The notes under the pieces were generated by a model, which had not been told where the DNA came from, did not search any database, and saw nothing but the letters and a program-made list of their open reading frames with translations. From the NCBI GenBank assembly GCA_031292455.1, contig JARLHC010000076.1, forward strand, positions 1 to 39,215: a DNA stretch of 39,215 nt, in the 5' to 3' direction. Positions 17,332 to 35,248 of this stretch are shown one piece after another. How positions within the stretch are numbered: the stretch's first letter is position 1; every line of letters starts with the position of its first letter. The translations under genes and the position numbers were made by a program. The stretch comes from Ignavibacteriaceae bacterium (GTDB lineage: Bacteria > Bacteroidota > Ignavibacteria > Ignavibacteriales > Ignavibacteriaceae).

Positions 17332-18030
17332 ATGGAAATAACTCCACATGTTTTGAGTGAGAACTTCCAAAATGATCTTAACAGATATGCGTTTCTGGGA
17401 AAATTTGCATCTATTTTGTATCATGAGATAGGAAGCTCTCTTTGCAAAATAAAAATGAATCTGGATCTGTACAAGGACGAGTTTAACGGTAGTGTTGAAC
17501 TTGAAAGACTGTATAAGATATTTTATGAAGAAATTACCCGCCTTAACAAACTTTCGAATGAAATAAATCAATATTCACGGCATACTGAAGCAATCCCCAT
17601 AAATATAAATATATATAGGCTTTTTGAGAGTATTAGGGAAAATGTATCTAAAAAACTGAATGAAAAAGAAATAAATATTCTAAATTTTACTCAGGAGAGT
17701 ACAATAGTGGGGGATTATATAAAACTTCAGACCGCATTTCTAAGTTTTTTTAATTACTCTGTCGACTCATTGAATACAAATAGCAGTATAGAAATATCAT
17801 CACAAACATTGGGTGAATCAAATAAAATATCGATTATTGTTAAAAATAGTGGAGATGGAGTAGTAAACATGAGCCCGATATTTAATCCGGCTGATATTTC
17901 CAGATCCGGACTGAGTTTATTGATTTTTAAACAATTGATTATTGATCTGGGAGGTTCCATTAATCTCCTTTCCTCAGATAAGAATGATTCCATGTTAGAA
18001 GTTCAATTACCCGGTGTGTTAAATGGATAA
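17332..18030 (+). CDS. Sensor-less histidine kinase
   Basis: A 232-residue cytoplasmic protein with no membrane segment and no recognisable input domain. The DHp helix carries the candidate phospho-accepting H31 in ILYHEIGSSLCKIKMNL. A HATPase region follows. Its N-box is FNYSVDSL (Asn kept), the G1-like motif is NSGDGV (Asn instead of the usual Asp), and the G2-like motif is SGLSLLIFKQLIIDLGG, where GLGL has become GLSL. ATP-lid sequence is short. It may be a weak kinase, a phosphatase-biased protein or one that needs a partner for input. The next gene overlaps its last 8 bp, so the two form a two-component pair. Kinase identity is good; activity is uncertain. Confidence 0.78.
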   Translation: MEITPHVLSENFQNDLNRYAFLGKFASILYHEIGSSLCKIKMNLDLYKDEFNGSVELERLYKIFYEEITRLNKLSNEINQYSRHTEAIPININIYRLFESIRENVSKKLNEKEINILNFTQESTIVGDYIKLQTAFLSFFNYSVDSLNTNSSIEISSQTLGESNKISIIVKNSGDGVVNMSPIFNPADISRSGLSLLIFKQLIIDLGGSINLLSSDKNDSMLEVQLPGVLNG

Positions 18031-19357
18031 GATTCTCATAATTGATGATGATCCGAATATTAGAGAAACTTTAAAGGTTTTACTCAGTAAGGAATATAAA
18101 GTTATACTTGCTGAAAATGGTATTACAGGTATTCAGAAATTCAAAAGTGAAAGTCCTGATTTAATTATTACTGATTTAAAGATGGATGATTATGACGGGA
18201 TTCAAATCCTTAAAAAAGTAAAAGAGCTTAATAATGATATACCCGTTATTTTAATTACAGCTTATGAGGATATTCGATCTAGTATAGATGCGGTTCAGTT
18301 TGGAGCATATGATTACATTGGGAAACCTCTTGACATAGAAAAATTCAAAATATGCGTTAAAAGAGCTCTTAACTGTAAAAAGTTAAATGACAAAATTTAT
18401 AATATTGTATCTCAGGGGATAGATGAATATCAATCAGCATTTAATTTTGTAGCAGAAACCCCTTCGATGAAGCATATTGTTAAAAATGTCGGTCATGTTG
18501 CAATGAGCAGAATGAATGTTCTTATTCAAGGGGAATCTGGAACAGGAAAAGAACTTATTGCCAAACTCATTCATTACAGCGGCGTAACAAAAAACAGTCC
18601 TTTTATTGCTGTTAATTGTTCTGCATTGACGGATACGATACTGGAGAGCGAATTGTTCGGTCATGTTAAAGGAGCTTTTACTAATGCTGATAGAGATAAA
18701 AAGGGGAAATTTGAATTAGCTGGAGATGGAACCCTTTTCCTGGATGAGGTTTCGGAAATCTCTCTATGCAATCAGGTAAAGCTTTTACGGGTAATACAAG
18801 CAAAAGAATTCGAAAAGGTCGGTGGGGAGGAGACAATCCCTTTTAATGGTAGAATTATTACTGCTACAAATAAAAACCTGAAAGATTTAGTGCAAAAAGA
18901 AAAATTCAGGGAAGATCTTTATTTTAGATTAAAGGTATTTATGATTGAAATACCTCCATTACGTGAAAGAAAGGAGGTTATTCCGAGTCTTGTTACTTTT
19001 CTGATAAATAAGATTAACAGGGAATTGCACAAGAATATTAGGAAAGTCCCTTTTGATGTGATGGAAATTCTTATGAATTATCAATGGGTAGGGAATATAA
19101 GAGAATTGGAAAATACCTTATATCAGGCAATGGTACTCTCTACAACTGATGTACTTGAAAAGGAAAATATTTTACTCCCGGGCAGGTTTACTGATAATAC
19201 TTCTAAAAACCGGGCTGGCATGAGCATCGCCGAGGTTGAGAAAGAACATATCAAATTAGTTCTTGAAAGCACTAATGGAAATAAACATAAAACATGTGAA
19301 ATATTAGGTATTTCTATGGGGACACTTTATAATAAAATAGCTGAGTACAACTTCTAA
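18023..19357 (+). CDS. NtrC-family sigma-54-dependent response regulator
   Basis: A 444-residue activator in three parts. The receiver (1-120) has acidic pocket D8-D10, phospho-acceptor D51, T79 and K101. The AAA+ domain (about 140-370) has Walker A GESGTGKE (170-177), the sigma-54 contact loop at 217-222, Walker B GTLFLDEV and arginine-finger region REDLYFRL. The C-terminal Fis-type helix-turn-helix is ISMGTLYNKIAEY. The contact loop reads GAFTNA rather than GAFTGA. It is coupled to the upstream kinase by an 8-bp overlap. A near-consensus sigma-54 promoter lies about 90 bp past its stop, in front of the CheW-like and polysaccharide genes, which are therefore its likely targets. Confidence 0.93.
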   Translation: MDKILIIDDDPNIRETLKVLLSKEYKVILAENGITGIQKFKSESPDLIITDLKMDDYDGIQILKKVKELNNDIPVILITAYEDIRSSIDAVQFGAYDYIGKPLDIEKFKICVKRALNCKKLNDKIYNIVSQGIDEYQSAFNFVAETPSMKHIVKNVGHVAMSRMNVLIQGESGTGKELIAKLIHYSGVTKNSPFIAVNCSALTDTILESELFGHVKGAFTNADRDKKGKFELAGDGTLFLDEVSEISLCNQVKLLRVIQAKEFEKVGGEETIPFNGRIITATNKNLKDLVQKEKFREDLYFRLKVFMIEIPPLRERKEVIPSLVTFLINKINRELHKNIRKVPFDVMEILMNYQWVGNIRELENTLYQAMVLSTTDVLEKENILLPGRFTDNTSKNRAGMSIAEVEKEHIKLVLESTNGNKHKTCEILGISMGTLYNKIAEYNF

Positions 19358-19375: not shown

Positions 19376-19389
19376 ATTTTTCGAAAAAT
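19376..19389. promoter_or_regulatory. 14-bp palindrome, candidate activator-binding site
   Basis: ATTTTTCGAAAAAT is a perfect palindrome centred about 90 bp upstream of the start site predicted from the sigma-54 promoter at 19446-19460. That is the usual distance for an NtrC-type enhancer site. It overlaps a competing outer repeat (TTATAATTT at 19360-19368 with AAATTATAA at 19386-19394), so it might instead be part of a terminator hairpin after the regulator gene. Confidence 0.4.
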
Positions 19390-19445
19390 TATAATCGCAT
19401 ATCAGACCCTTCTTCATTTCTTGCATATTTAACTACTTATCAAAT

Positions 19446-19460
19446 TGGCACCTTTATTGA
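19446..19460 (+). promoter_or_regulatory. Sigma-54 (-24/-12) promoter
   Basis: TGGCAC-CTTTA-TTGA matches the sigma-54 consensus TGGCAC-N5-TTGC with a single mismatch in the last base. The GG and the -12 element have the required spacing. The expected start is near 19472, leaving a leader of about 27 nt before the CheW-like ATG at 19499. It sits directly behind the gene for a sigma-54 activator, which strengthens the call. Confidence 0.72.
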
Positions 19461-19498
19461 AACAATATATGCACCTATAATAAAAATATGGAAATAGA

Positions 19499-19945
19499 AT
19501 GCAATGCGATTCCTATAAAAAGTGGATAGGAATTCTTGTCTTTTCGGCATCCTCTGTAGAATTCGGATGCAATATAACACGGGTTAATATCCTATCCTCA
19601 AAAAAACAAAATATGACTTCTGAAGGTCGGATTCTGTGCAATGGGAATGAAATACCGGTCTGCTACTTGGGGGATCTACTCAAAATAAAAAACAATACTC
19701 ATAATAAAAATAAACGGATTCTGATTTTCGAATCCAATAATGAGCAATTCGGTATCGGCATCGATGAAATAAAAGAAATATTGCCGCTGGATGATAAGTC
19801 TTTTGAAAATGAAGTAAAGTCAGAGAAAGGATCTGATAATAAATATATTCTTGGAAAAATAATTTTTGAAGGAAGGACTATTATTCTCCCGGACTTTGAT
19901 AAAATAATCGCTCGTGTTAAAAGTTTACAAAATGTATCGTTATAG
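19499..19945 (+). CDS. Stand-alone CheW-like domain protein
   Basis: A 148-residue cytoplasmic protein that resembles CheW, the scaffold linking chemoreceptors to the CheA kinase. Two SH3-like halves can be seen: ILVFSASSVEFGCNITRVN and RILIFESNNEQFGIGIDEIKEILPLDD, the latter being the typical CheW GIxVDxVxEVL region. There is also GKIIFEGRTIILPDFDKII near the end. No CheA, receptor or CheY gene is in the window. It is the first gene after the sigma-54 promoter and 93 bp before the sugar transferase gene. It may tie the glycan locus to a chemosensory array, or act as an adaptor for the kinase upstream; both are inferences. Confidence 0.8.
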   Translation: MQCDSYKKWIGILVFSASSVEFGCNITRVNILSSKKQNMTSEGRILCNGNEIPVCYLGDLLKIKNNTHNKNKRILIFESNNEQFGIGIDEIKEILPLDDKSFENEVKSEKGSDNKYILGKIIFEGRTIILPDFDKIIARVKSLQNVSL

Positions 19946-20038: not shown

Positions 20039-21616
20039 ATGAAAAGCTTTGCTGATAAAAGCAAAATATCAATTGAATATCTTATCGTTGATGGTTTCAT
20101 TTTAACATTATTCTGTTACTATGGAATTCTGTTAAATTTAAACCTGGCTGATATTAAAGGGAAGGAATATCTGTTATTCGCAGTAATTTATATCGGTTGG
20201 TTAATATCCGCTGCCACCACAAATAAATTCATTCCTGTAATATTTCCTACAAAAAGATGGAAAGCATTCGAATTCAAAATAAAATTTTATGTGTGGTTTA
20301 TTTTATTAATTGTTGTATCGATGATTTTTGTAAATATCCAGTTTCCCGGCTCGATCTATATTATTAAAACAATAATAGGCTATACTTTATTATCGTCATT
20401 AGTCTCTATGATTTTCTTTGTAATAAAGAAAGAAAATAAGACCGATGATGTGACTCTAACATTTTTAAAAGCCTATGAGTTAAAAGATCATGTAGTACCC
20501 TCCAATGGAAGGAAGCATAATATAAAGTACGCTATCAATGATACGGAACCTAATGAGTCTGTAATTAAGAAACCGCTGCAATTTGAATATTTGGAAGAAT
20601 ACGTCGATGTATTTTCGGTTCTTGACAATATTCTTGATTTCAAAACATTCGATACTCGTAAGGCTGTCATAATTAAATATAACGATCCTATTAATATCTC
20701 ATTATTATACGCTGATTCATATCAATTAATTGTTAATCTCCATTTTATGAATGATCAGAATAATCTGAATAAATTTCTATATGATACTAGAAGTGCATTA
20801 GCTCCCGGGGGTGTATTCGTCGGGATGTTACATCATGATTGTTACAGGTACAGCAAGTTCCTTAAAAAATATTATTTCTTAATCGGGAATATTCTTTATT
20901 GCTTTTATTTTATTTGGAAAAGAATATTTCCTAAGCTGCCCGTTACACGGGAGCTTTATTGGACATTTAGTAAAGGTAAAAACCGGGCTATTTCGCTTGC
21001 GGAAGGATTAGGAAGATTAATATACTCAGGTTTTAAAATATTAGATATTGCCGCATTAGACGATATTGTGTATTTGGCAGCTGTCAAAGATAAAGCCCCC
21101 ATCCCTGAAAAGAAAAATTTCTATAGCCTTTTCTTTAAAATGAAAAGAATCGGTAAAGGTGGAAAAACAATATATGTCTATAAGCTAAGAACTATGCATC
21201 CATATTCAGAATATATCCAGGATTTTGTATATGAGTTAAATGGGTATGGCGATAAAGGCAAAATAAAAGATGATTTCAGAGTTGCATCATGGGGAAAATT
21301 TTTAAGAAAATATTGGCTTGATGAACTGCCTATGCTAATAAATGTTCTGAAAGGTGACCTTAAGTTAGTTGGGGTCAGACCATTAAGCTGTAGTATGTTT
21401 AATCAATATCCTCCTGAATTGCAAAAATTACGTATAGCTTCAAAACCTGGTCTAGTGCCTCCATTTTATTATGATCTGCCTGTAACTTTTAATGAAATAC
21501 TGGAGTCGGAAAAAAAATATCTTTTATCTTATGAAAGAAACCCGGTTAAAACCGATATTAAATATTTCTTTAAGTGTTGGTATAATATTATAGTAAGAAA
21601 AGCAAGAAGTTCATAA
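20039..21616 (+). CDS. Polyprenyl-phosphate sugar-1-phosphate transferase (priming enzyme)
   Basis: A 525-residue membrane protein that probably starts each repeat unit by moving a sugar phosphate to undecaprenyl phosphate. Four N-terminal membrane helices lie at about 14-130. A central part (about 185-350) contains a methyltransferase-like stretch (SYQLIVNLHF...SALAPGGVFVGML) and a hydrophobic NILYCFYFIWKRIFPKLP segment that may be the reentrant helix. The catalytic domain follows (about 360-525): MKRIGKGGKTIYVYKLRTM, WGKFLRKYWLDELPMLINV and LKGDLKLVGVRPLS. After KLRTM the sequence is HPYSE instead of the usual acidic D-A-E type motif, which I recall from a Bacteroidetes-group subfamily. The Shine-Dalgarno is weak. 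Confidence 0.85.
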   Translation: MKSFADKSKISIEYLIVDGFILTLFCYYGILLNLNLADIKGKEYLLFAVIYIGWLISAATTNKFIPVIFPTKRWKAFEFKIKFYVWFILLIVVSMIFVNIQFPGSIYIIKTIIGYTLLSSLVSMIFFVIKKENKTDDVTLTFLKAYELKDHVVPSNGRKHNIKYAINDTEPNESVIKKPLQFEYLEEYVDVFSVLDNILDFKTFDTRKAVIIKYNDPINISLLYADSYQLIVNLHFMNDQNNLNKFLYDTRSALAPGGVFVGMLHHDCYRYSKFLKKYYFLIGNILYCFYFIWKRIFPKLPVTRELYWTFSKGKNRAISLAEGLGRLIYSGFKILDIAALDDIVYLAAVKDKAPIPEKKNFYSLFFKMKRIGKGGKTIYVYKLRTMHPYSEYIQDFVYELNGYGDKGKIKDDFRVASWGKFLRKYWLDELPMLINVLKGDLKLVGVRPLSCSMFNQYPPELQKLRIASKPGLVPPFYYDLPVTFNEILESEKKYLLSYERNPVKTDIKYFFKCWYNIIVRKARSS

Positions 21617-21809: not shown

Positions 21810-22331
21810 ATGAAAAATAATTACTTACTCCGCACCTTTATATTATTATCAATAGTATTAAGTACACATTTATTTGCACAGGAAGATATTCAAATAGGGA
21901 AAAGCCGGGGAAATATGCGTGATAACCCGGCATTATATGATTGTTCCGATCCGGATGGTATCAATATTAAAGTGATGATATGGGGCTATGTAAAATATCC
22001 GGGGCAGTATATTATTCCTTCTGCAAGCGGAGTGAATGAATTTCTTTCACTTGCGGGTGGACCGGTTCAGGATGCTGATCTGGATAATCTAAAGTTATTT
22101 AGAATTAACCCGGATTCGAGTCAAACAATAATTAATTTTAATTATAAAGACCTTTTAATGAATAACAGCGATTTATCAAAACCGCTTATAATTCCAAAAT
22201 TACATGCAGGTGATATTCTTCTGGTCCCCGGTTCACCCAAATGGTATCTAAGGGATTACCTGGGACTATTACTTTCAATTGTGGCAACCGTAGCGTCTAT
22301 AGCTACTCTTCTTGTTTATATCTATAAATAA
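21810..22331 (+). CDS. SLBB-domain polysaccharide export protein with C-terminal membrane anchor
   Basis: A 173-residue protein. It has signal peptide MKNNYLLRTFILLSIVLSTHLFA, then one SLBB domain (about 55-145): IKVMIWGYVKYPGQYIIPSA followed by VNEFLSLAGGPVQDADLDN and AGDILLVPGSP. A C-terminal hydrophobic helix follows (LGLLLSIVATVASIATLLVYIY). Canonical Wza-type exporters start with a Poly_export domain, have several SLBB domains and end in an amphipathic outer-membrane helix. This one lacks the first and ends in what looks like an ordinary inner-membrane helix. It probably works in the periplasm with the adjacent Wzc-like protein, 15 bp downstream. Confidence 0.85.
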   Translation: MKNNYLLRTFILLSIVLSTHLFAQEDIQIGKSRGNMRDNPALYDCSDPDGINIKVMIWGYVKYPGQYIIPSASGVNEFLSLAGGPVQDADLDNLKLFRINPDSSQTIINFNYKDLLMNNSDLSKPLIIPKLHAGDILLVPGSPKWYLRDYLGLLLSIVATVASIATLLVYIYK

Positions 22332-22346
22332 TAATAAGGGATTAAT

Positions 22347-24587
22347 ATGCAAAACAAAGATATTGATATTAAAAATTATACCTTCGGGGATACTAAATCA
22401 ACGATGGATTATATATTATTAATACGTACTAATCTTAAATCATTAACGGTTATTTCTTTAATTATATTTATTCTCTTTCTCTCTTATGCGTTATTAGCTC
22501 CCAGTATATATAAATCGACCGTTACTTTAAAAATTACTGTACAGCAGAAAACTGTTTTAAATTCCGGAACACAAGATGAAGTAAACACTGCCTATAGCGA
22601 TAGATTTATAGCAAATGAAATTGAAGTAATTCAAAATTATGATACCCGGGAAAAGGTTGCTTATGCTATAATTGATAGTATTGAAAATAACAGGGATAAA
22701 AGTATTTTTATTTTAATGGGTCTCAAAGAAAATACAAATGAAATAACCGGGCATAAAACACTTACTGATATAATTACTTTGTTGAAGACTAAGGTTAAAA
22801 CAGAGCAAATAGTGGGCATGGATGTTATTGATATCTCAGCGGAATCACCTTCACCAAAAGAAGCTGCACTGATAGCAAATACATATGCTGAACAATATAA
22901 AAAATTAAATCTTGAAGAAAACCGGAACCAGCTTAATGTCGTAAGGAAATTCCTGGAAAAACAAACCCAGGATAAATTATCTGAGCTGAATAAAGCAGAA
23001 AATGAATTGACAAGATTTAAAGAAAAAGGCGGAATAGTTGCCTTAGATGCTCAATCTTCAATTTTAATTACTCAGCTTTCGCAGTTAGATGCAGAGAGAG
23101 ATGCTGCTAAAATCGATTTGATGACTTCTAATGGAGTATTGGATCAATATAAAAAAGAAATAGGCCGACAGGATCCAATTCTTGTTAATTACCTTGAGGG
23201 TCAGACTTCACAGGCATACGTAGATGTCCTTCAAAAACAAATCGCTGATCTCCAGATGAACAGGGATATGGCTATGACTAATAAAAGCTCTGATATAGAT
23301 GTATCCGGTAAAATTAAAGATTATGACCGAAAAATAAGCGACCTGCAACAAAAATTGAATTCCAAGATAAACGAGATTAAGACCGGGGCATTTTCAAGCA
23401 GCCCCAATCAGATAAGGGACTTAACCCAAAAACTGATTGAAGAGGAAGTGAGAAATCATTCTCTTTCAATTAAATTAAATGAACTACAGACAATAATTGA
23501 TAAATATGAGGTAAACCTTAATAAATTACCCAAAAAATCTATGGATTTTGCCGGGTATGAAAGAAATATGGAATCTTTGCAGCAATTATATACTCTTGTA
23601 CAACAGAAGTACCAGGAAGCTTTTATAAATGAACTTTCCCAACCGGGGAATTCAACCATTATTGGTATTGGTAGGGTTCCGGATAGCCCTGCTAAACCAA
23701 ACAGATTATTAATAATTCTTTTGGGGATATTAGCTGGTCCCGTTATTGCTTTTGGATATATATTAATTAAGGATGCTTTCGATGATACAGTTCAAACACC
23801 CGATGATATTGAGAAAAACAATATTAGTTTCCTTTCATGGGTTCCTCACTCAATTTATAATATCAACAATTATCACAAAAATGAGGAATTATTGGCATTA
23901 TATGAATCTGATTCCCCTGTAAGTGAATCATTTCGAACCATTAAAGCACGTATTCAAACTTTTCGGGAGGATTCCGAATTTCCTAAAGTAATATTAGTGA
24001 CATCACCAGCAGAAGGCGAGGGTAAGTCTTTTGTATCTTTCAATTTAGCAGGGAATTTTGCTCAATCTAATAAAAGAACTTTGTTAATAGATTGTGATTT
24101 AAGAAGGCCTAAAATTCATACTATTTTAGGAGTTGATAAAAAACCAGGTCTCGTAGATTATTTATCTAATAAAGTAAAATTAGAAGACATAATAAGGAAA
24201 ACAAGAAAGAATAATTTAAGTTTTATCACTTCTGGTCCAATACCATTAAATCCAGCTGAATTGCTGGAATCTAAATTGATGCGCACTTTCTTAGATAAAG
24301 TGCGTGATATTTTTGATGTCATAATTTTTGATTCTGCTCCTATAGTTGCTGTAATCGATACTGAGATCGTGGCCAAGTTAGTTGACGGAACAATATTGGT
24401 CATATCAGCTGCTAAAACTAAAAACCAATTAATGCTTGATGCGGTTAAAATTATTAAACGCAACAATAGTTTATTCCTTGGGATTATACTGAATAACTTT
24501 ATATACAAGAATGGTTATGGCTACTATTTCAAATATTATTATAACTATTCATCTGAAGGGAAGGGTATTAAAAAGCATAGAGTTTGA
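22347..24587 (+). CDS. wzc: Polysaccharide co-polymerase and BY-type tyrosine autokinase (Wzc-like)
   Basis: A 746-residue inner-membrane protein that controls chain length and export in Wzx/Wzy systems. The first membrane helix is at about 30-50 (SLTVISLIIFILFLSYALLA), followed by a Wzz-type periplasmic domain with long coiled-coil stretches (about 190-420). The GNVR-like part precedes the second helix (about 453-475). The cytoplasmic kinase has Walker A TSPAEGEGKS (552-561, K560), Walker A' LLIDCDLRRP, Walker B VIIFDSAP and a C-terminal tail with eight tyrosines in 16 residues, the expected autophosphorylation cluster. A strong Shine-Dalgarno (AAGGG) precedes the ATG. No partner phosphatase lies in the window. 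Confidence 0.93.
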   Translation: MQNKDIDIKNYTFGDTKSTMDYILLIRTNLKSLTVISLIIFILFLSYALLAPSIYKSTVTLKITVQQKTVLNSGTQDEVNTAYSDRFIANEIEVIQNYDTREKVAYAIIDSIENNRDKSIFILMGLKENTNEITGHKTLTDIITLLKTKVKTEQIVGMDVIDISAESPSPKEAALIANTYAEQYKKLNLEENRNQLNVVRKFLEKQTQDKLSELNKAENELTRFKEKGGIVALDAQSSILITQLSQLDAERDAAKIDLMTSNGVLDQYKKEIGRQDPILVNYLEGQTSQAYVDVLQKQIADLQMNRDMAMTNKSSDIDVSGKIKDYDRKISDLQQKLNSKINEIKTGAFSSSPNQIRDLTQKLIEEEVRNHSLSIKLNELQTIIDKYEVNLNKLPKKSMDFAGYERNMESLQQLYTLVQQKYQEAFINELSQPGNSTIIGIGRVPDSPAKPNRLLIILLGILAGPVIAFGYILIKDAFDDTVQTPDDIEKNNISFLSWVPHSIYNINNYHKNEELLALYESDSPVSESFRTIKARIQTFREDSEFPKVILVTSPAEGEGKSFVSFNLAGNFAQSNKRTLLIDCDLRRPKIHTILGVDKKPGLVDYLSNKVKLEDIIRKTRKNNLSFITSGPIPLNPAELLESKLMRTFLDKVRDIFDVIIFDSAPIVAVIDTEIVAKLVDGTILVISAAKTKNQLMLDAVKIIKRNNSLFLGIILNNFIYKNGYGYYFKYYYNYSSEGKGIKKHRV

Positions 24588-24889: not shown

Positions 24890-25597
24890 ATGAAAGCAGT
24901 AATATTAGCTGGCGGTTTAGGTACAAGGTTAAAACCATTTACTGAAATTATTCCGAAACCTTTATTGCCAATTGGTGAAAAAGCAGTACTTGAAGTACAA
25001 ATTGAGGCCTTAAGCCGGAACGGCTTTGATGAAATATATTTAGCTACTAATTATAAATCAGATTATATACAAAATTTCATCGGTAACGGCGATCGATACG
25101 GGATAAATATAATAATTAGCAAAGAGAAAAAACCGCTCGGTACTGTCGGGCCTTTGACTTTATTAAAAGATAAATTACAGGAACCATTTCTGGTAATGAA
25201 TGGGGATATATTAACACTCCTTAATTTCAGCAGCTTATATGAATTTGCAATTTCTACCCAAAGTCTATTAACAGTTTCCATAAAAGAATTTATTACTCCC
25301 TTTCAGTTTGGTAATATATTTTTTGATGGAGATTATGTAACTAAGATTGATGAAAAACCTAAAATTAAAACAAACATATTAGCAGGCATTTATATTTTTA
25401 AACCCGAAATATTTGAGTTAATTCCGGATGATGAATACTTTGGAATGGATATGTTAATAAATAAAATGTTGAATTTAAAAATTCCCATTTCCAAGTATGA
25501 AATTAAAGAATATTGGCTGGATATTGGACAGATTGATGATTTCCAATTAGCACAATTAATGTATAAAGAACATTTTACTTCATCAGACATATTATGA
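24890..25597 (+). CDS. Nucleotidyltransferase (NDP-sugar pyrophosphorylase)
   Basis: A 235-residue soluble enzyme that joins a sugar 1-phosphate to a nucleotide. The N-terminal signature is MKAVILAGGLGTRLKPFTE, followed by IPKPLLPIGEKAVLE. The metal-binding acidic motif is VMNGDIL, and EYWLDIGQIDDFQLAQ closes the fold. The short single-domain form resembles HddC-type and mannose-1-phosphate guanylyltransferase-like enzymes more than the longer GlmU or ManC. Substrate and nucleotide are not predictable. It overlaps the next gene by ATGA, so the two are probably made together. Confidence 0.9.
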   Translation: MKAVILAGGLGTRLKPFTEIIPKPLLPIGEKAVLEVQIEALSRNGFDEIYLATNYKSDYIQNFIGNGDRYGINIIISKEKKPLGTVGPLTLLKDKLQEPFLVMNGDILTLLNFSSLYEFAISTQSLLTVSIKEFITPFQFGNIFFDGDYVTKIDEKPKIKTNILAGIYIFKPEIFELIPDDEYFGMDMLINKMLNLKIPISKYEIKEYWLDIGQIDDFQLAQLMYKEHFTSSDIL

Positions 25598-26565
25598 GAA
25601 AAATACTGGTTACTGGAGCTGCAGGTTACATCGGCAGTGTGCTGGTTAGAAGACTATTAGAAAAAGGTTATAAAGTAAGAGGATTAGATACATTATTTTT
25701 TGGGGGCGAATCATTAATCTCTGTCTATAATAATACTAATTTTGAATTTGTTAAGGGAGATTTACGGGAATTTGATACTATTAAAAAAGGATTGGATGGG
25801 GTAACTGATGTCGTTCATCTTGCTGCTATAGTTGGTGACCCTGCATGTGCAAAACAACCAGAAATAGCAAAGCAAATAAATTGGGAAGCTTCCAGACGTT
25901 TATATGATGAATGTAATAAAGGAAAGATAGATCATTTTGTTTTTGCCTCAAGTTGCAGCAATTATGGGAAAATGCAAGATGATTCTTATATAACAGAGGA
26001 ATCGGAATTAAGACCTGTATCCCTCTATTCAGAGTTGAAGGTTAAATTTGAAAAGTATCTTTTAGAAAATCATATTAGAGGCACTTTTATTCCAACTATA
26101 TTAAGATTTGCGACAGTATACGGGTTGTCATCCAGAATGAGATTTGATCTTACGGTAAATGAATTTATTCGCGAAGTCGCTTTAGGTAACGAACTTAAAA
26201 TATTTGGAGAACAATTTTGGAGGCCTTATTGTCATGTAGAGGATTTATCTGAGTCTTGTATTAAGGTATTAGAATCTTCAGTGGAAAATGTTAAAAAAAA
26301 CGTTTTTAATGTTGGTGATACTAGTGAAAATTATCAAAAGGAAATGATTGCCAGAGAAATACTAAAGATTTTACCTCAGGCCAAAATAAAATATATTCAG
26401 AAAGATGAAGATCCAAGAAATTACAAAGTAGATTTTACGAAAATTAAAAATAAACTTGGATTCAAAATTACCAAAACTATACCGGATGGATTGAAGGAAA
26501 TTTATAATGTGTTAGAAAATGGTATAATTTCGGATCCATATTCATTGAAATATCAAAATATTTAA
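25594..26565 (+). CDS. NAD(P)-dependent sugar epimerase/dehydratase (extended SDR)
   Basis: A 323-residue extended short-chain dehydrogenase/reductase. The nucleotide-binding motif is GAAGYIG near residue 8, followed by GDLRE, VVHLAAIVGDP and FASSCSNYG. The catalytic YxxxK is YSELK. It should oxidise, epimerise or reduce an NDP-sugar. It lies between a nucleotidyltransferase and an aminotransferase, so it probably prepares the keto sugar for amination or modifies the product. It lacks clear 4,6-dehydratase hallmarks such as the TDE active-site triplet. Confidence 0.85.
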   Translation: MRKILVTGAAGYIGSVLVRRLLEKGYKVRGLDTLFFGGESLISVYNNTNFEFVKGDLREFDTIKKGLDGVTDVVHLAAIVGDPACAKQPEIAKQINWEASRRLYDECNKGKIDHFVFASSCSNYGKMQDDSYITEESELRPVSLYSELKVKFEKYLLENHIRGTFIPTILRFATVYGLSSRMRFDLTVNEFIREVALGNELKIFGEQFWRPYCHVEDLSESCIKVLESSVENVKKNVFNVGDTSENYQKEMIAREILKILPQAKIKYIQKDEDPRNYKVDFTKIKNKLGFKITKTIPDGLKEIYNVLENGIISDPYSLKYQNI

Positions 26566-26595
26566 TAAAGCCTATGAATAAAGAGGCATTATATA

Positions 26596-27786
26596 ATGTC
26601 TGATTTTATTCCATTATCGGTTCCTTCGATAAAAGGGAATGAATGGAAATATATTAAAGAATGTTTGGATACCGAATGGGTTTCCTCGGTGGGGAATTAC
26701 GTTGATCAATTCGAAAAGAAAATTGCAGAATACACTGGGACTAAATATGCTGTTGCATGTATTAATGGTACATCTGCTTTGCATGTTTCACTCTTGTTAG
26801 CCGGCGTAAAACCTGAAGATGAGGTAATAGTTCCAACTTTAACATTTATTGCTACTGTAAATTCTATAAAATATTGTGGAGCTTACCCGGTTTTTATGGA
26901 TTCTGACTGTTATTATAATTTAAATACCGAAAAAACTATAGAGTTTATAATAAAAGAAACCGAAATGAAGAAAACTAATATATCAGGAGGAAATGAAGAA
27001 TGGCGTTCTTATAACAAAAGAACGGGAAGATGTATATCCGCTATAATTCCAGTTCATATTTTCGGTAATGCGGTATGGCTTGATGATATATATAAAGTAT
27101 GTAAAGAAAAAAATATTAAGATAATCGAAGATGCTGCTGAAAGTTTAGGTACAAAATATAGTAAAGGTAAATTGAAGGGGAAAAATACCGGTTCAATCGG
27201 TGAATTGGGGTGTCTGTCTTTTAATGGAAATAAAATTATTACAGCAGGTGGCGGGGGGATGATAATAACTAATAATAAAAAATACGCAGAAAAAGCCAAG
27301 TATTTAACAACTCAGGCAAAAGATGATTCTGTAAGATTTATACATAATGAAATTGGTTTTAATTACAGGTTATCCAATATTCAGGCTGCTTTAGGGGTAG
27401 CTCAACTTGAGAAATTAGGTAGTTATATAAAAATCAAAAAGAATAATTATGATTTATATAAAAAATATATCCAAAAAATAGACGGGCTCAATTTAGCAGC
27501 AGTGCCTGAATATGCAGTTAATAATTATTGGATGTATGCTTTGCAAATTGATAAAGAAAGATATGGAAAAGATAAAAAACAATTAATGCGGCATTTACAT
27601 GATAATAATATCCAGTCGAGACCTGTTTGGTATTTAAATCATAAACAGAAAAAATATAAATGCTGCCAGTCTTTCTTTATTGAAGAGGCAGAAATATTGT
27701 ATCAAGAAACATTGAATATACCTTGTAGTGTTAATCTCAGAAAAGAAAGTATATTAAAAGTAATTGAGAAACTTAATGAAAGATAA
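26596..27786 (+). CDS. DegT/DnrJ/EryC1 sugar aminotransferase (LegC-like)
   Basis: A 396-residue PLP-dependent enzyme that aminates a keto sugar nucleotide. It has IPLSVPSIKGNEWKYIKECLDTEWVSS at the N-terminus, and GTSALHVSLLLAGV and VPTLTFIATVNSI, typical of LegC-type 4-aminotransferases. IEDAAESLGTKY supplies the PLP-stacking and binding residues, and K213 in SFNGNKIITAGGGG is the Schiff-base lysine. Length is usual for the family. A GAGG Shine-Dalgarno precedes the ATG. The next gene, an acetyltransferase, overlaps its end, consistent with amination followed by N-acetylation. Confidence 0.9.
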   Translation: MSDFIPLSVPSIKGNEWKYIKECLDTEWVSSVGNYVDQFEKKIAEYTGTKYAVACINGTSALHVSLLLAGVKPEDEVIVPTLTFIATVNSIKYCGAYPVFMDSDCYYNLNTEKTIEFIIKETEMKKTNISGGNEEWRSYNKRTGRCISAIIPVHIFGNAVWLDDIYKVCKEKNIKIIEDAAESLGTKYSKGKLKGKNTGSIGELGCLSFNGNKIITAGGGGMIITNNKKYAEKAKYLTTQAKDDSVRFIHNEIGFNYRLSNIQAALGVAQLEKLGSYIKIKKNNYDLYKKYIQKIDGLNLAAVPEYAVNNYWMYALQIDKERYGKDKKQLMRHLHDNNIQSRPVWYLNHKQKKYKCCQSFFIEEAEILYQETLNIPCSVNLRKESILKVIEKLNER

Positions 27787-28420
27787 AATTGTCGTTATCG
27801 GAGGCGGGGGATGGGGTAGAGTTATTATTAACGCTTTAAAAAAACTCAATATTTATGAGATATTGGGCTATACTGATCTGGTTGATAAGGGGACATTATT
27901 TGGAATTAGATATTTAGGAAACGATGATGTATTAAAAGATATAATTAAGAAATATACAAATTGTAATGCAGTTTTAGGGGTTGGTAATATTATAATTTCA
28001 AAAACCAGGATAGAATTATTTGAAAAAATAAAAAAAATAGGATTTATATTCCCTGTAATAATATCACCAAATGCTATTATAAATGAAGGGGTCGAAATCG
28101 ATGAAGGGACAGTAGTGCTTGACGGTGCAGTTCTGTGTACTTGTGCAAAAATCGGTAAATGTGCAATTGTAAGCTCGAATGTAATTCTTGAACATGATAG
28201 CTCGAGTGGTGATTTTGTGAATTTCTGTGCAGGAGCGATTCTAAGTGGCGGCGCAGCTATCGGGGATAATTCCTTGCTGGGCGTAAGTGCAATTATCGTC
28301 GGATTCAAAAAAGTTGGGAGGGATTGTTTTATAGGTCCTGGTTCAGTTGTAATTAAAGATTTGCTTCTACCTGGTACTTATTTCGGATCACCCGCTAGAA
28401 AAATAAGCATTTCGGAATAG
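27776..28420 (+). CDS. NeuD/PglD-like sugar N-acetyltransferase
   Basis: A protein of about 214 residues. The ATG at 27776 is preferred to the in-frame TTG at 27764 because it starts the family's first strand directly (MKDKIVVIGGGGWGRVI). The N-terminal ~80 residues form a Rossmann-like sugar-nucleotide domain. The rest is a left-handed beta-helix of hexapeptide repeats (INEGVEIDEGTVVLDG, IGDNSLLGVSAIIVG, VGRDCFIGPGSVVIKD). These trimeric enzymes acetylate an amino or hydroxyl group on a sugar with acetyl-CoA. It overlaps the aminotransferase by 11 bp, so the amino group made there is the likely acceptor. Confidence 0.88.
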   Translation: MKDKIVVIGGGGWGRVIINALKKLNIYEILGYTDLVDKGTLFGIRYLGNDDVLKDIIKKYTNCNAVLGVGNIIISKTRIELFEKIKKIGFIFPVIISPNAIINEGVEIDEGTVVLDGAVLCTCAKIGKCAIVSSNVILEHDSSSGDFVNFCAGAILSGGAAIGDNSLLGVSAIIVGFKKVGRDCFIGPGSVVIKDLLLPGTYFGSPARKISISE

Positions 28421-28480
28421 CAAAACCTAACCTTTATATTACCATTAATATTATAAACTGATTTATCCTAAAAGATTTAA

Positions 28481-29614
28481 TTGCATAATATTCACTTATT
28501 CTCATTAAAAGAAAGAAATAAATGGGCTGAATGTTTTAATAAACTTCCCTCTTCTATTCAAGATGTTTATTATACTCCGGAATATTACAATATATATGAA
28601 AAAAACGGGGAGGGTGATGCACGATGTTTTGTTTACGAAGATGGAATGAATATTGCGTTATATCCATTTATGATGAATAATGTTAATGTACTCGGATATG
28701 AGCTAGATGAATCATATTATGATATTCAGGGAGCTTATGGATATAATGGCGTAGTGACTTCTTCTTATGAACCACTTTTTATTAAAAAATTTTATTATGA
28801 ATTACAAAGATATTGTCTAAGTAATAATATAATTGCTGAATTTACAAGATTTCATCCTCTCCTAAAGAACGAAGAATTTTCGAGAGGTTATTTGGAAATA
28901 AATTATAACAGACCTACTGTATATATAGACTTAATAAATAGCTATAATGTAATTTATGAAAATTTTGCACATTCAGTAAAATCAAATCTAAAAAAAGCAA
29001 AAGAGAATAATTTATCGGCAAGTATTTATAAACATGAATATCCTTATAAAAAAGAATTCATTGAAATGTATAATGAAACAATGAAGAGGGTTAATGTTAT
29101 ATCAAAAAATGCTTATGATACAAACTTTTTTGAAAGAACATTTAATAATTTGCCGATAATTCACTTTGTTATATTTAAAGATAATATGCCTATCGCATCG
29201 GCTATATGTTTGGCCCACAATAATTATTTACATATACATTTAGAGGTATCCCGAAAGGAATATTGGTATTTACGCCCAAATGATTTATTGATTAAGGAAA
29301 TTATACAATATGGTTCGGATAATGGCTATACCAAGATTCATCTTGGTGGAGGCCGTACTGTGAGTCCTGATGATTCATTATTACGATTTAAGAAAAAATT
29401 TTCCAATTTGACGTCTGATTTTTATATAGGAGGAAAGATATACGATGAAAAGGTATATACCAATGTATGTAAACAATGGAATGATAGATATCAACACCTA
29501 GCAAATAAATATAAAAATAACATATTAAAATACAAATTTACGGATGATATAAATTATATCCAAGAAGATAGCGATCACTTATTCGACTATGACAAATATT
29601 TATTAAAAAAATGA
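28481..29614 (+). CDS. FemAB/GNAT-fold acyltransferase-like protein
   Basis: A 377-residue soluble protein starting at a TTG (28481), the first possible start after an in-frame stop. The C-terminal half fits the GNAT-like fold of FemAB and related families: VKSNLKKAKENN, MYNETMKRV, HFVIFKDNMPIASAICL, RPNDLLIKEIIQYGSDNGY and KIHLGGGRTVSPDDSLLRFKKKFS. FemAB enzymes pass an aminoacyl group from tRNA to peptidoglycan, and relatives in glycan loci may decorate sugars. Substrate is unknown. The next gene overlaps by 4 bp (ATGA), so the two proteins probably work together. Confidence 0.8.
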   Translation: MHNIHLFSLKERNKWAECFNKLPSSIQDVYYTPEYYNIYEKNGEGDARCFVYEDGMNIALYPFMMNNVNVLGYELDESYYDIQGAYGYNGVVTSSYEPLFIKKFYYELQRYCLSNNIIAEFTRFHPLLKNEEFSRGYLEINYNRPTVYIDLINSYNVIYENFAHSVKSNLKKAKENNLSASIYKHEYPYKKEFIEMYNETMKRVNVISKNAYDTNFFERTFNNLPIIHFVIFKDNMPIASAICLAHNNYLHIHLEVSRKEYWYLRPNDLLIKEIIQYGSDNGYTKIHLGGGRTVSPDDSLLRFKKKFSNLTSDFYIGGKIYDEKVYTNVCKQWNDRYQHLANKYKNNILKYKFTDDINYIQEDSDHLFDYDKYLLKK

Positions 29615-30675
29615 AATTTTTAATTGGTGGTGAGAGCTTTTACAATCCATTAACAATACTTGGAAGAAATATATTTAATATTAATGCATATCTTGACAAT
29701 AATTACGAATACCGATACAATTATTTTACAGGAGGAGGTATCTATTCCCTTTATTATATCCTTATGCATTTGGATATAATCTCAGAGGAATATTGTTTAT
29801 TGCCTTCATATATAAACCCGTCTATTCCGGAACTATTCGACAAATTAAAGATTCATTATAAATATTACAGGATAAATAGTAATCTTAAAATTGATCTTGA
29901 TTTCCTTGATAAAATTATTGATAAAAAATGTAAAGCGTTTCTTGTAATCGACTATTTCGGTTTTCACCATGATAATGAGACAAATCAGTATATCAATAAT
30001 ATAAAAATAAAAGGGATATCAGTTATACAGGATATAGTCCAGGCATTTCTACCAAAGTATAGCCTGATAGGTGATTATTGTTTTAATAGTTTTAGAAAAT
30101 TTATTCCGGTTGATGGTAGCGTAATCTTAAGCCGGAATAAATTAAATATTCAAAATAAACGGAAAAATTTAAGTTATTTGATATGTCGGCATTCTGCTAG
30201 AATTATAAGATTTCTTGAAGTCGAATTGAATATAAATACTTCAAAATTATATCTTTATTTGTATAACCTGTCTGAAACAAAATATTACAATTATTATAAT
30301 ATAAAATTTGACATCTATAATAAAACATTATTACAAAAAATAAATATTGATGATATTGTAAATAAAAGAAGAAGTCGTTATAACCAATTGTTAAATATAC
30401 TATACGAAAAGGCTCTTATAAAGGAAATGCCGGCAGATGTAATTCCCCTGGGATTCCCTATTATTACGGACAATAGAGATAAGTTAAAAAAAACTCTTGC
30501 AAAAATGAATATTTACTGCTCGGTGCATTGGGAATTATTTTCTAATATTTTGCAAAACAACCATTCAGAAAGTGTCTTATTATCAAATAATATCTTAACA
30601 TTTCCTATTAATGACTCGGTTAATGATTCTAATTTTTTGAGATATTTAGAAATAATTAAAAGTATGGTAAAATAA
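29611..30675 (+). CDS. Atypical DegT-like PLP-fold protein
   Basis: A 354-residue protein. It is shorter and more divergent than the neighbouring LegC-like aminotransferase, but the layout is of the same fold type. An N-terminal GGGIYSLYYIL segment fits the cofactor phosphate site, LPSYINPSIPELF is the usual substrate strand, and LVIDYFGFHHD and VIQDIVQAFLP mirror the DegT DxxG/EDxA motifs. K163 in NSFRKFIPVDGSVI sits at the Schiff-base position. A PLP enzyme is likely, but its substrate is unknown. It is coupled by ATGA overlap to the FemAB-like gene, suggesting synthesis and transfer of one unusual acyl or amino group. Confidence 0.7.
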   Translation: MKFLIGGESFYNPLTILGRNIFNINAYLDNNYEYRYNYFTGGGIYSLYYILMHLDIISEEYCLLPSYINPSIPELFDKLKIHYKYYRINSNLKIDLDFLDKIIDKKCKAFLVIDYFGFHHDNETNQYINNIKIKGISVIQDIVQAFLPKYSLIGDYCFNSFRKFIPVDGSVILSRNKLNIQNKRKNLSYLICRHSARIIRFLEVELNINTSKLYLYLYNLSETKYYNYYNIKFDIYNKTLLQKINIDDIVNKRRSRYNQLLNILYEKALIKEMPADVIPLGFPIITDNRDKLKKTLAKMNIYCSVHWELFSNILQNNHSESVLLSNNILTFPINDSVNDSNFLRYLEIIKSMVK

Positions 30676-30779
30676 AATTATTATGAAGAAACTTCTAATT
30701 GTAATATGTCGTGTTATTTAACTGGAAAAAATGCTATTTAAAATAACGGGATATTTAAATTAATATTTTCAGAAAATAT

Positions 30780-32135
30780 TTGGATGTACACAACATTATA
30801 AATAAGGTAGGAAATAATACACGGTCAGGTATTGCCAAAAAGAATATTATCGCCTCCATATTTATTAAAGGATGCAGTGTACTTGTTAATTTGTTATATG
30901 TCCCCCTATTAATTAAAACCTTAGGTAAAACCGAATATGGTATTTGGTTAATATTATCGTCATTAGTCGGGTGGTTTTCATATTTTGATATCGGTATTGG
31001 AAATGGATTAAGAAATAAATTTGCGGAGGCTGTATCACAAGGTGATTACAGATTAGCAAGGATATTCGTTAGCACTGCTTATGCTGTTGTAAGTATTATA
31101 TTTATTATAGTAGGGATGATCGGTATAATAATAATACCGTTATTAAATTGGAATAGTATCCTTAATACTAATGATATTTCAAATTCAGAACTGATTTCTA
31201 TTGTACTTATAGTATTTTCCTTCTTTATAATTAGATTTATTACACAACTTATTGCTGTAATACTTTTAGCCGATCAAAAAACCGCTTTATCCAGCAGTCT
31301 TAGTTTAATCGCAAATATAGTTACTCTCGTTGTGATATTTATATTAAATAAACTATCACTGGCAACCTTATTGGTAAGTAGTTTTATATTAAGTTCTGTA
31401 CCTGTTTTAGTATTTATATTATCTTCTTTTTATTTCTTTACTAAAGATTATAAAAGATATAAACCATCTATATATTTTATTAATTTTAGTTACAACAAGC
31501 AGCTATTTAGATTGGGGATTCAATTTTTTATAATACAATTATCGATGATTATATTTTACTCTTCGACTAATCTTTTAATAACACAATTTTTTTCACCGGA
31601 TGATGTAGCTGTCTATAATATAGGATTCAAATATTTTTCTCTAATTACAATGATATTCGGGATAATATTAGCTCCAATGTGGTCTGCAATAACTGAGGCA
31701 TATGCCGTTAAGGATTATGAATGGATTAAAAAGGTCATGAAGAAACTAAAGATAGCTGCTTTGCTTCTATGCTTGTTAGTATTCTTTATGTTACTGTTTG
31801 CAAATAAATTTTATGAATTATGGGTTGGAAAAATAATATTAATACCTATTAAACTGTCTGCCGTTCTGGCATTAACTACTATTGTTTATATATTTTTTAG
31901 TCCCTATAGTATATTTTTAAATGGTGTAAGTAAAATTAAACTAAATACATATTTAGTCATTTTGCAATCTGTACTTTATATCCCGGTAGCATATTTACTT
32001 GCTAAATATTATAATATGGGGATTTCCGGTATAATATTAGCTGGATTGTTATGTGAATTGCCATTGAGAATAACTCAGCCTCTGCAATATAAACTTATTA
32101 TGGAAAATAGAGCCTATGGTATCTGGAACAAATAA
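30780..32135 (+). CDS. wzx: Wzx-type polysaccharide flippase
   Basis: A 451-residue membrane protein of the MOP superfamily with about 12-14 hydrophobic helices. It moves lipid-linked repeat units across the inner membrane. The N-terminal VNLLYVPLLIKTLGKTEYGIWLILSSLVGWFSYFDIGIGNGLRNKFAEA stretch is characteristic (first membrane segment, then the TEYGIW and GNGLRN loops). The start is a TTG at 30780 because no in-frame ATG follows soon; the frame-shifted ATG at 30784 meets a stop at once. An 8-bp stem with a 3-nt loop ends on the first base of the start codon. The 104-bp gap upstream holds no gene. Confidence 0.92.
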   Translation: MDVHNIINKVGNNTRSGIAKKNIIASIFIKGCSVLVNLLYVPLLIKTLGKTEYGIWLILSSLVGWFSYFDIGIGNGLRNKFAEAVSQGDYRLARIFVSTAYAVVSIIFIIVGMIGIIIIPLLNWNSILNTNDISNSELISIVLIVFSFFIIRFITQLIAVILLADQKTALSSSLSLIANIVTLVVIFILNKLSLATLLVSSFILSSVPVLVFILSSFYFFTKDYKRYKPSIYFINFSYNKQLFRLGIQFFIIQLSMIIFYSSTNLLITQFFSPDDVAVYNIGFKYFSLITMIFGIILAPMWSAITEAYAVKDYEWIKKVMKKLKIAALLLCLLVFFMLLFANKFYELWVGKIILIPIKLSAVLALTTIVYIFFSPYSIFLNGVSKIKLNTYLVILQSVLYIPVAYLLAKYYNMGISGIILAGLLCELPLRITQPLQYKLIMENRAYGIWNK

Positions 32136-33048
32136 CCCTCTTGTTACGGTTATAACGATAACAAGAAACCGTGCATCTTTACTTAAGCGGGCAATATTAT
32201 CAGTTATAAATCAGACCTATAAGAATTTAGAATATATTATAATTGATGGGGCATCGGAGGATAATACCTCAGAGGTGGTTAATTCCTTTCAAGATAAAAG
32301 GATTATTTATATAAAACAGAGCCATAATAAAAATATATCATTATCATGCGACGAAGCCGTTCAATTATCAACTGGGAAATATATAACATTTCTTGATGAC
32401 GATGATAAATATTTGCCCATGAAAATAGAAAAACAAGTAAAACTTATTGAATCACTCCCTAATGACTATGGTCTTGTTTATTGCTGGATGGATTATTATG
32501 ACCAAGATAGTGGTAAAATGATTGGTGAACATCATCCCAATAATAGAGGATATATTTATTACGATTGTATTGAGAAGCAGTCCATGGGTGGGGAACCCAC
32601 ATTGTTTATGAGAAGAGAAGTTTATTTTGATGTTAATGGATGGAATAAGAACTTAAAATTAAGCAGTGACTGGGAATTTAATACCCGTATAGCTCGAAAA
32701 TATTTAATAGATTTTGTCCCGGAAGTGTTAGTCCATGTATATATAAATCATTCATTTTTAAGAATGACAGAAAGCTTTATTCCTAATTCAAGAGATAAGA
32801 TCATAAATTTAATAGAATATACAGAATATTATCTAAATGAATTTAAGGATGGGTTTCAGAAATATCCGGAGAAGAAGATTCCGCACTTAGTTCGTCTGGC
32901 GAAATTACATGCTAGACTAGGTGAAATAAATAATTGTATAATTAATATCAGGCAACTAATCCGTGAATTCGGATTTAATTTGAATATACAAGTAACAATA
33001 TTAAAGTCAATATATTTTTTGATTTCCGGATATTCAATTAGAAAATAA
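32116..33048 (+). CDS. Glycosyltransferase family 2
   Basis: A 310-residue GT-A enzyme that adds a sugar to the lipid-linked repeat unit at the cytoplasmic face. The N-terminal VTVITITRNRASLLKRAI strand, IIDGASEDNTSEV and the metal-binding FLDDDDKY (DxD) motif are clear, followed by GEPTLFMRREVY and LSSDWEFNTRIARKY, typical of acceptor-side GT2 sequence. Its start overlaps the end of wzx by 20 bp. Donor and linkage cannot be predicted. Confidence 0.92.
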   Translation: MVSGTNNPLVTVITITRNRASLLKRAILSVINQTYKNLEYIIIDGASEDNTSEVVNSFQDKRIIYIKQSHNKNISLSCDEAVQLSTGKYITFLDDDDKYLPMKIEKQVKLIESLPNDYGLVYCWMDYYDQDSGKMIGEHHPNNRGYIYYDCIEKQSMGGEPTLFMRREVYFDVNGWNKNLKLSSDWEFNTRIARKYLIDFVPEVLVHVYINHSFLRMTESFIPNSRDKIINLIEYTEYYLNEFKDGFQKYPEKKIPHLVRLAKLHARLGEINNCIINIRQLIREFGFNLNIQVTILKSIYFLISGYSIRK

Positions 33049-34322: not shown

Positions 34323-34340
34323 CTGACAGGTAATAAGGAG

Positions 34341-35222
34341 ATGATACGAATTGCGGCTGTTATCCCGACTCATAATAGAATAAAATATTTGAAAAATATT
34401 TTAAATGATCTGTATAATCAAAAAGCAAGTAATTCTATTTTAGAAATAATTGTTGTCGTAGATGGATCAACCGATGGTACGTTGGAAATGCTAAAAAAAG
34501 AATATCCGAAAGTTAAGATTGTTTTAGGTAATGGTGAATGGTGGTATACCAAGAGTATGAACGAAGGATTTAAATTGGGTTTAAAGCTAAAAGAAGATTT
34601 TTTCCTTACATTAAATGACGATCTATCATTACCTGGTGATTACGTAAAAAAGTTACTTGACGATTATAATGGACTTGAAAAAAATAGTATTCTGGGGTCA
34701 ATATCTATATCTGATACCTTCCCTTATAGAATAACATTTTCTGGTGTAAAAAAAATTATTATGTGGAGATTAAAAGAAATACCGTATATAAAAAAATTTT
34801 CAGTGGTCTGTCCTGACGAATTATTTGGTATATTACCATCCCCAATTTTAAGTGGGCGTGGAATACTCATACCTGCAAAATTATTGACTGACTTAAATTA
34901 TTACGATGAGAAATTACCACAATATGGTTCTGAAACTGACTTTTGTTTAAGAGCATTCAAAAATAATATAAACATATATATTACATACAATGCACAAGTT
35001 TATGAAAACAAAAGTCTGACATCAAAAGGAGCTGCTTATAATAAACCAAGGCTATCAGAATTTGTAAGAAGTATGTTTGATATTTATTCCATTAATAGTA
35101 TTCGCAAATCCCTATATATGTATCGGAAACATTGCAATATGCTTGCAATACCAATCCTGTTTGTAATCCTTACTCTTGGTCTTTTTAAAGTCTATTATTT
35201 AAAATATCGATCATTAAAATAA
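34341..35222 (+). CDS. Glycosyltransferase family 2 (rhamnosyltransferase-like)
   Basis: A 293-residue GT2 enzyme. IAAVIPTHNRIKYLKNIL, VDGSTDGTLEML and the DxD-like LNDDLSLPGDYV are the nucleotide-sugar and metal sites. GNGEWWYTKSMNEGFKLGL and LSGRGILIPAKLL and YGSETDFCLRAFKN are typical of the rhamnosyltransferase-like branch. A hydrophobic C-terminal segment (LAIPILFVILTLGLFKVYYL) may bind the membrane. AAGGAG abuts the ATG with no spacing; a second ACAGG lies 10 nt further upstream. Confidence 0.9.
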   Translation: MIRIAAVIPTHNRIKYLKNILNDLYNQKASNSILEIIVVVDGSTDGTLEMLKKEYPKVKIVLGNGEWWYTKSMNEGFKLGLKLKEDFFLTLNDDLSLPGDYVKKLLDDYNGLEKNSILGSISISDTFPYRITFSGVKKIIMWRLKEIPYIKKFSVVCPDELFGILPSPILSGRGILIPAKLLTDLNYYDEKLPQYGSETDFCLRAFKNNINIYITYNAQVYENKSLTSKGAAYNKPRLSEFVRSMFDIYSINSIRKSLYMYRKHCNMLAIPILFVILTLGLFKVYYLKYRSLK

Positions 35223-35248
35223 TTTATGAAATAATATATAAAGGCAGA

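Follow-up and report, generated by a model that had tools for sequence, protein, structure and literature searches.

The 39,215-nt stretch of contig JARLHC010000076.1 analysed here (from an Ignavibacteriaceae bacterium; hereafter the window) quite probably carries one copy of a module that recurs across the order Ignavibacteriales and consists of a sigma-54 activator gene, an RpoN promoter, a CheW-like first gene and a set of product genes. Sequence comparison across loci establishes the promoter element and its position, the pairing of one activator clade with the CheW-like gene and the interchangeability of the outputs, in a genome where neither CheA nor MCP was found. We infer that the CheW-like protein works in solution as a regulatory partner within the sigma-54 circuit and not as a link to chemoreceptors. 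The glycine dehydrogenase encoded in the window shares 69% identity with its counterpart in an Ignavibacteriaceae MAG and 61% with that in a Melioribacteraceae MAG, and this one protein makes Ignavibacteriales likely as the order. The features of the window are as follows.

544-3441, glycine dehydrogenase, a gene of the window outside the module
17332..18030, + strand, histidine-kinase-like protein of 232 aa, no sensor domain found (HisKA 23.6 and HATPase_c 23.8 bits, both below cut-off)
18023..19357, + strand, NtrC-type sigma-54 activator of 444 aa (Pfam receiver, Sigma54_activat (AAA+) and HTH_8, a Fis-type HTH)
19376-19389, no strand, 14-bp palindrome ATTTTTCGAAAAAT, read in the sequence
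19445-19460, + strand, predicted sigma-54 (-24/-12) promoter element TTGGCACctttaTTGA, kept ahead of the CheW genes of relatives
19499..19945, + strand, CheW-like protein of 148 aa (PF01584, 54.7 bits, cut-off 23.5)
20039..21616, + strand, priming sugar-phosphate transferase (Bac_transf, Pfam), the first glycan gene
21810..22331, + strand, SLBB-domain protein, polysaccharide-export-like (PF10531, 23.9 bits, below the cut-off of 27)
22347..24587, + strand, Wzc-type chain-length determinant and tyrosine autokinase (TIGR01007, 181.7 bits, cut-off 108.05)
24890..38393, + strand, rest of the glycan locus (Pfam, NCBIfam)
26596-27786, + strand, LegC-family aminotransferase (TIGR04181, 471 bits, cut-off 420)

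The sigma-54 element and the search for an enhancer

The bases at 19445-19460 read TTGGCACCTTTATTGA, with the -24 GG at 19447-19448 and GA in place of the consensus GC as the -12 dinucleotide (19459-19460). Against a TGGCAC-N5-TTGC-like consensus, in which the GG stands ten bases ahead of a G, nine of ten letters match and an A replaces the C after the -12 G. The element lies 88 nt past the regulator stop (19357) and 38 nt ahead of the CheW ATG (19499), and transcription from it would start near 19472. Within its own 141-nt gap, 3 of 1000 shuffles hold an element as good. Over the whole window, the promoter pattern with at most one mismatch has three matches against 0.93 expected, a count reached by 10 of 100 shuffles; this is not clearly rarer than chance, so the case for the element rests on comparison across loci.

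Across the 28 loci with a regulator and a CheW, the best upstream sites sum to a score of 229, while shuffled sequences give 172.3 ± 3.4 with a maximum of 186, and none of 300 shuffles reaches the observed value; the reversed consensus over the same loci sums to 170. This summed score is the decisive point for the element. The best site has at least 8 of 10 consensus letters upstream of the CheW in 23 of the 28 loci. Its distance to the aligned CheW start is 25-65 nt in 25 loci, against a mean of 7.5 loci in shuffled sequence, and 12, 79 and 95 nt in the remaining three. Counted on these score-chosen sites, the GG is present in 28/28 and the -12 G in 26/28. Taken singly, the best site is equalled by no more than 25 of 500 dinucleotide shuffles in 20 of the 26 same-strand gaps. 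Four loci (L325-L328; 250-461 of 500 shuffles as good) and L335 (201/500) are no better than chance, and L322 is borderline (49/500); the word TGGTCT-N5-TTG stands at 40-47 nt in all four of L325-L328. At the two loci with a divergent CheW (L267 and L268), an element matching nine of ten letters lies 29 nt ahead of the aligned CheW start. In the window's own genome, TGGCAY-N5-TTGNW has 35 matches against 7 for a reversed control pattern, and both module CheWs of that genome are preceded by sites among the 35. On this comparison we regard the sigma-54 element at 19445-19460 as confirmed. The preliminary description, which had proposed a one-mismatch -24/-12 element at this distance from the CheW gene, holds here: the element is read directly, it is conserved over the 28 loci and mostly kept (clearly in the 23) by relatives with the same gene order, and rpoN is present in the genome (435.8 bits against a cut-off of 277.35).

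It is very improbable that the element is a chance match, the CheW a relic carried along with the regulator, and the glycan genes served by an ordinary promoter. The weak single-window statistics and the long branches in the CheW clade would fit such a history, as would the sigma-70-like sites of the region, whose number matches chance expectation. Against it stand the 28-locus score, the clustering of the site positions, and a CheW frame that is open at all 28 loci. No terminator-like site was found on the + strand of 17000-20600.

The palindrome at 19376-19389 has its centre about 89 nt before the expected start and had been taken for an enhancer. A spacer-free palindrome as long occurs in 8 of 300 shuffles, and an arm as long, with a spacer allowed, in 44 of 200. 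No counterpart was found in the other module gaps, which hold unrelated inverted repeats instead, some of them longer. Of 344 loci, five contain this exact word: four are copies of the window, and in L335 it lies inside the CsgG frame. The palindrome is therefore present and placed as described, but we reject it as a conserved enhancer, being near chance and unconserved across gaps. Of the promoter, palindrome and CheW gene, whose joint conservation had been suggested as a check, the promoter and the CheW do recur; the analysis located no enhancer for the activator.

A second inverted repeat, TGTAAA-N5-TTTACA, matches 12 of 12 letters in L067 and 11 of 12 in each of three loci from other phyla (L097-L099), where it stands in each gap (L097:7356-7514, L098:7335-7450 and L099:7335-7453). 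It is a candidate enhancer of the wider regulator family. As an enhancer shared with the window it was rejected, since the best match there has 8 of 12 letters and is at chance (426 of 500 shuffles as good).

The activator clade and the module loci

A first survey, in which 59 genomes (the window's own included) were searched with the window CheW and kinase, found kinase matches next to CheW matches in several genomes. Nine further loci had the order regulator, gap, CheW, with a TGGCA-type element in every gap. Because choosing loci by their CheW was to be avoided, we then searched 164 genomes of the order with an alignment of module regulators. This yielded 81 matches of at least 599 bits, the next being at 558.8 and 518. 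A CheW lies next to the regulator on the same strand at 26 of the 81 loci and divergently at L267 and L268. The stretches read at the other 53 loci, three of which have less than 1.5 kb behind the regulator, yielded no CheW-like frame at E 1e-3.

A quick tree covered 79 of the 81 clade regulators and eight outside regulators; L286, a near copy of L285, and L298, whose regulator is at a contig end, were left out. Of the 79, 49 form one sister clade (SH-aLRT 99), and none of these adjoins a CheW in the stretch read. Among the other 30, 28 adjoin a CheW, L082 ends 608 nt past its regulator, and L266 has none adjoining; the genome of L266 (G019) has a module-like CheW elsewhere, which precedes SLBB and Wzc genes but has no clear element of its own. 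Efflux or metal-oxidase-type genes lie behind the regulator at four of five sister-clade loci scanned, namely L290 (OEP, HlyD with heavy-metal-binding domains, and AcrB types), L304 (OEP and AcrB), L300 (AcrB) and L279 (multicopper oxidase), and a DNA polymerase was found at L270. Judged from these five loci and the gene sizes in the rest, the sister clade appears mostly tied to efflux. Many sister-clade gaps also hold a good sigma-54-like site.

The window regulator matches Sigma54_activat with 218.3 bits, and its loop reads GAFTNA in place of GAFTGA. Such departures occur in three of the 81 clade regulators: the window, L082 (GSFTNA) and L328 (GAFTDA). In the window and L082, the altered loop and the TTGA-for-TTGC element may be a co-adapted pair. 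The best NCBIfam similarity of the regulator is to AtoC, of the AtoC/ZraR-type response regulators, at 417 bits; it falls below that family's cut-off of 714 and, unlike it, is paired with a CheW and other outputs. Regulator relatives were also sought in named genomes, and among the best 80 of 594 candidates no CheW-like frame (E 1e-5) was found in those 80 loci. At the three loci from other phyla (L097-L099), a related regulator is followed by a sigma-54-like element, read by eye, and then by a receiver protein; ten proteins were scanned behind these loci, and none marks a glycan locus.

The preliminary description had given the order kinase, activator, CheW, sugar transferase, and the genes are as named by Pfam, the kinase falling under both of its cut-offs. 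The kinase-like protein keeps its His box (YHEIG). Compared with seven kinases of related loci, the Asp of DxGxG (G1) is replaced by Asn, and GTGLGL (G2) and the FxPF box are gone; the set of H, N, G1, F and G2 boxes that marks a catalytically complete histidine kinase is incomplete. From these motifs the protein is probably weak or inactive. A kinase adjoins the regulator at 15 of the 26 same-strand loci, none does so at nine with at least 1 kb read, and two cannot be judged. With the eroded ATP-lid motifs and the nine relatives with no kinase beside the regulator, the earlier view of the adjacent kinase as a plain input is not supported. The kinase beside L082, the locus of the window regulator's best relative, keeps its ATP-site motifs. 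Where no kinase adjoins, a MORN-repeat gene can lie divergently beside the regulator (L052:10449-11846 and L055:2940-4283).

Regulator, element and CheW are constant across the 28 loci, and the output genes differ. Glycan genes lie behind 15 of the CheWs (the window, L054, L062, L067, L068, L267, L268, L269, L280, L322, L325-L328 and L330), the call for L267, L268 and L269 resting on one gene each. Curli assembly genes follow at four loci (L055, L069, L320 and L335). Six loci, from family f2 genomes, have acyl-AMP-ligase or type I polyketide synthase genes: L271, L295, L314 and L334 were scanned, L294 was scanned in part, and L277 was called by its length, equal to that of L271. One output, at L066, is a 1207-aa frame with no Pfam match, and two loci (L052 and L053) have no same-strand gene directly behind the CheW. 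A switch for glycan only, as first proposed, is at odds with the same module standing ahead of curli and polyketide-type genes.

In the window, 93 nt separate the CheW gene from the transferase gene. Proteins similar to the SLBB protein occur in L054, L063, L068, L072 and L280. The remainder of the locus (24890-38393) encodes a nucleotidyltransferase, an epimerase, a LegC-type aminotransferase, acetyltransferases, a flippase, glycosyltransferases, an O-antigen-ligase-type protein and a polysaccharide deacetylase; the frame at 29611-30675 has no Pfam match. The LegC match is over its cut-off and lies beside a NeuD-like acetyltransferase (0.1 bit under its own NCBIfam cut-off); a legionaminic-type or related amino sugar may therefore be part of the glycan.

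The transferase, SLBB and Wzc genes are also present in G001, a genome from the same genus, where a sigma-54-like TTGGCACtttaaTTGG stands 202 nt ahead of the transferase frame (L072:9442). At the cut-offs applied, searches of G001 gave neither a module CheW nor the kinase nor a clade regulator, and its three CheW-domain frames all belong to another cluster. Loci were found with the regulator as bait, which under-samples module-like CheWs away from such a regulator, and these do exist (L063 and L338-L342). The CheWs of L338-L342 score 51-102 bits; the stretches read around them contain no clade regulator, and L338 and L340 have a common degenerate upstream word, ACGGTATGnTTTTTG.

Points that speak against the module reading include the five loci with no element better than chance, the replaced -12 C and the GAFTNA loop in the window, and G001, in which no module part was found at these cut-offs. 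In the literature, covered in part and judged by titles and the openings of abstracts, we found no description of a regulator-element-CheW module.

The CheW-like clade and chemosensory partners

The 29 module CheWs (those of the 28 module loci and L063) split from 20 other CheWs of the order with 100/99 support, in a tree that has many long branches. The 20 are those lying in fetched stretches, from 77 matches, and are called chemotaxis-type by lying outside the module. The NLRG motif, presumably receptor-binding, is found in none of the 29 and in all 20 of the others. The residue after EF is Cys in 19 module CheWs, Ala in nine and Gly in one, that of the window; it is Gly in 20/20 others. By raw identity, the window CheW is no closer to the module set (16-26%) than to the others (23-29%), so its placement rests on the tree and the motif. 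Relatives of the window CheW were sought in named genomes, and none was confirmed there. In a phylum-wide CheW search (395 genomes), the matches of at least 160 bits were only proteins of the query alignment. Module CheWs outside that alignment score 62-126 bits and other CheWs up to 97 bits, an overlap that leaves the search uninformative on whether the module also occurs outside the order.

We then looked for chemosensory partners. No match to the CheA dimerisation domain (PF02895) or to MCP (PF00015) was found in the window's own genome (G000), which is 96.7% complete, while each search was positive in 7 of 14 control genomes. PF02895 by itself was considered too unsafe a basis for calling CheA absent, since the domain misses CheW-domain frames of 754-771 aa in G001, G028 and G437; that PF02895 can miss CheA is also stated in a passage of a published study (PMC10782961). 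The number of CheW-domain proteins in a genome was therefore used beside it as a better test, since CheA itself carries a CheW domain. The only PF01584 matches in the window's genome are two, both short module CheW frames. Among 24 genomes, only module CheWs are present in six: G000 (two) and G005, G012, G029, G036 and G425 (one each). Their completeness is 96.7%, 82%, 99%, 100%, 95% and 100%, respectively, and G012 and G036 are listed with 8% contamination. PF02895 has no match in any of the six. The MCP search among them covered G000, G005, G012, G029 and G036; it found none in G000, G005, G012 and G036 and one weak match (7.7e-5) in G029.

These results bear on the proposal that the CheW ties glycan production to a chemosensory array or a scaffold of receptors, which we consider most unlikely. 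The fold family is indeed that of CheW, and CheA and MCPs do occur in some other module genomes, G011, G044 and G050 among them. The proposal is opposed by the window's genome, with no MCP, CheA or other CheW domain found, by the five genomes that show a module CheW alone, and by the lack of NLRG throughout the module CheWs. The coupling to a signalling scaffold put forward in the preliminary description fails on the same points, and for this genome it is already largely refuted. Since no chemotaxis kinase or receptors were found in the genome, this relative of an adaptor protein probably has a new job. It has the Pfam domain PF01584 in common with chemotaxis CheW and the CheA P5 domain, and differs from them in these missing partners, in the motif and in its separate clade. 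Chemosensory control of exopolysaccharide is found in the Dif system of Myxococcus xanthus, where a CheW homologue influences exopolysaccharide; CheA and MCP homologues are present there, whereas none was found in the window's genome.

Proposed circuit and its meaning

As activator gene, element, CheW and outputs recur as a unit in the order, the arrangement looks like one switch. The single switch of the preliminary description survives for these four parts, but not for the palindrome, the plain kinase input, the chemosensory scaffold or the restriction to glycan. In the circuit that we propose, some kinase would phosphorylate the activator, which would drive an RpoN promoter from a site upstream of it. 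This promoter lies directly after the activator gene or, in two loci, divergent from it. The promoter at 19445-19460 would thus answer to the neighbouring activator. The CheW-like protein would be made first and the product enzymes after it, with the CheW and glycan genes on one transcript in the window. The output genes would serve to make a product that is exported or secondary, in the case of the window an exopolysaccharide.

The CheW accompanies the regulator whatever the product type, which makes a partner in the regulatory circuit more likely than one in the product machinery; the regulator was the search bait, and this weakens the argument. Feedback on the activator or its kinase appears the most likely role and a gate on the product machinery a less likely one. 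Put specifically, the CheW may bind the sigma-54 activator, or the kinase of that activator, and as a feedback or adaptor protein set how active the circuit is, a tentative reading to which we give slightly less than an even chance. It fits the constancy of the regulator as the CheW's neighbour while glycan, curli and polyketide-type outputs all occur, and the persistence of the regulator-CheW pair in the 9 of 26 loci where no kinase adjoins. It is weakened by the use of the regulator as bait, which favours just such a pattern, and by the AlphaFold model of the window CheW from its single sequence, which is poor (pLDDT 43.7), so that no interface could be judged.

A possible though rather unlikely role is a downstream one, in which the CheW would gate the extracellular product as SypA does in the syp system of Vibrio fischeri. 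There, the sigma-54 regulator SypG switches on a locus that opens with sypA, the gene of a small signalling protein required for biofilm (PMC4517449). The syp layout (SypG, SypE, SypA) is similar to that of the window: a sigma-54 response regulator, a small single-domain signalling protein first, then polysaccharide genes (PMC4517449). It is difficult to think of a partner that the machineries for polysaccharide, curli and polyketide-type products would have in common, which counts against a product gate. SypA is a STAS-domain protein, whereas the window protein is CheW-like, and module outputs elsewhere are also curli and polyketide-type genes. The syp locus is the nearest working analogue found, and the CheW may have a SypA-like role.

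The PrsK/PrsR PEP-CTERM exopolysaccharide systems also resemble the window, with a kinase and a Fis-type sigma-54 regulator beside exopolysaccharide genes, and the RpoN-dependent pepA promoter is described as having TGGCAC and CTGCTT motifs (PMC9850573). The passages on these systems mention no CheW gene (PMC9850573). We rejected the window regulator as a member of the family, as its TIGR02915 match (363.2 bits) is below the cut-off of 502.6.

With moderate confidence, we propose that a clade of the CheW fold departed from chemosensory systems and now serves a sigma-54 response regulator as its dedicated partner. Regulator, RpoN promoter and CheW would together make up a portable output head, joined within one bacterial order to exopolysaccharide, curli and polyketide-type gene sets. 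If true, such a clade would contradict the published statement that the CheW domain is found only in chemosensory systems. Six genomes with members of this clade yielded no CheA, and no receptors were found in four of the five that were searched for them. A CheW clade tied to a transcription activator would be a small case of a scaffold protein in a new role, and the module would point to a switch that recurs ahead of genes for matrix and secondary products in an order that has been little studied.
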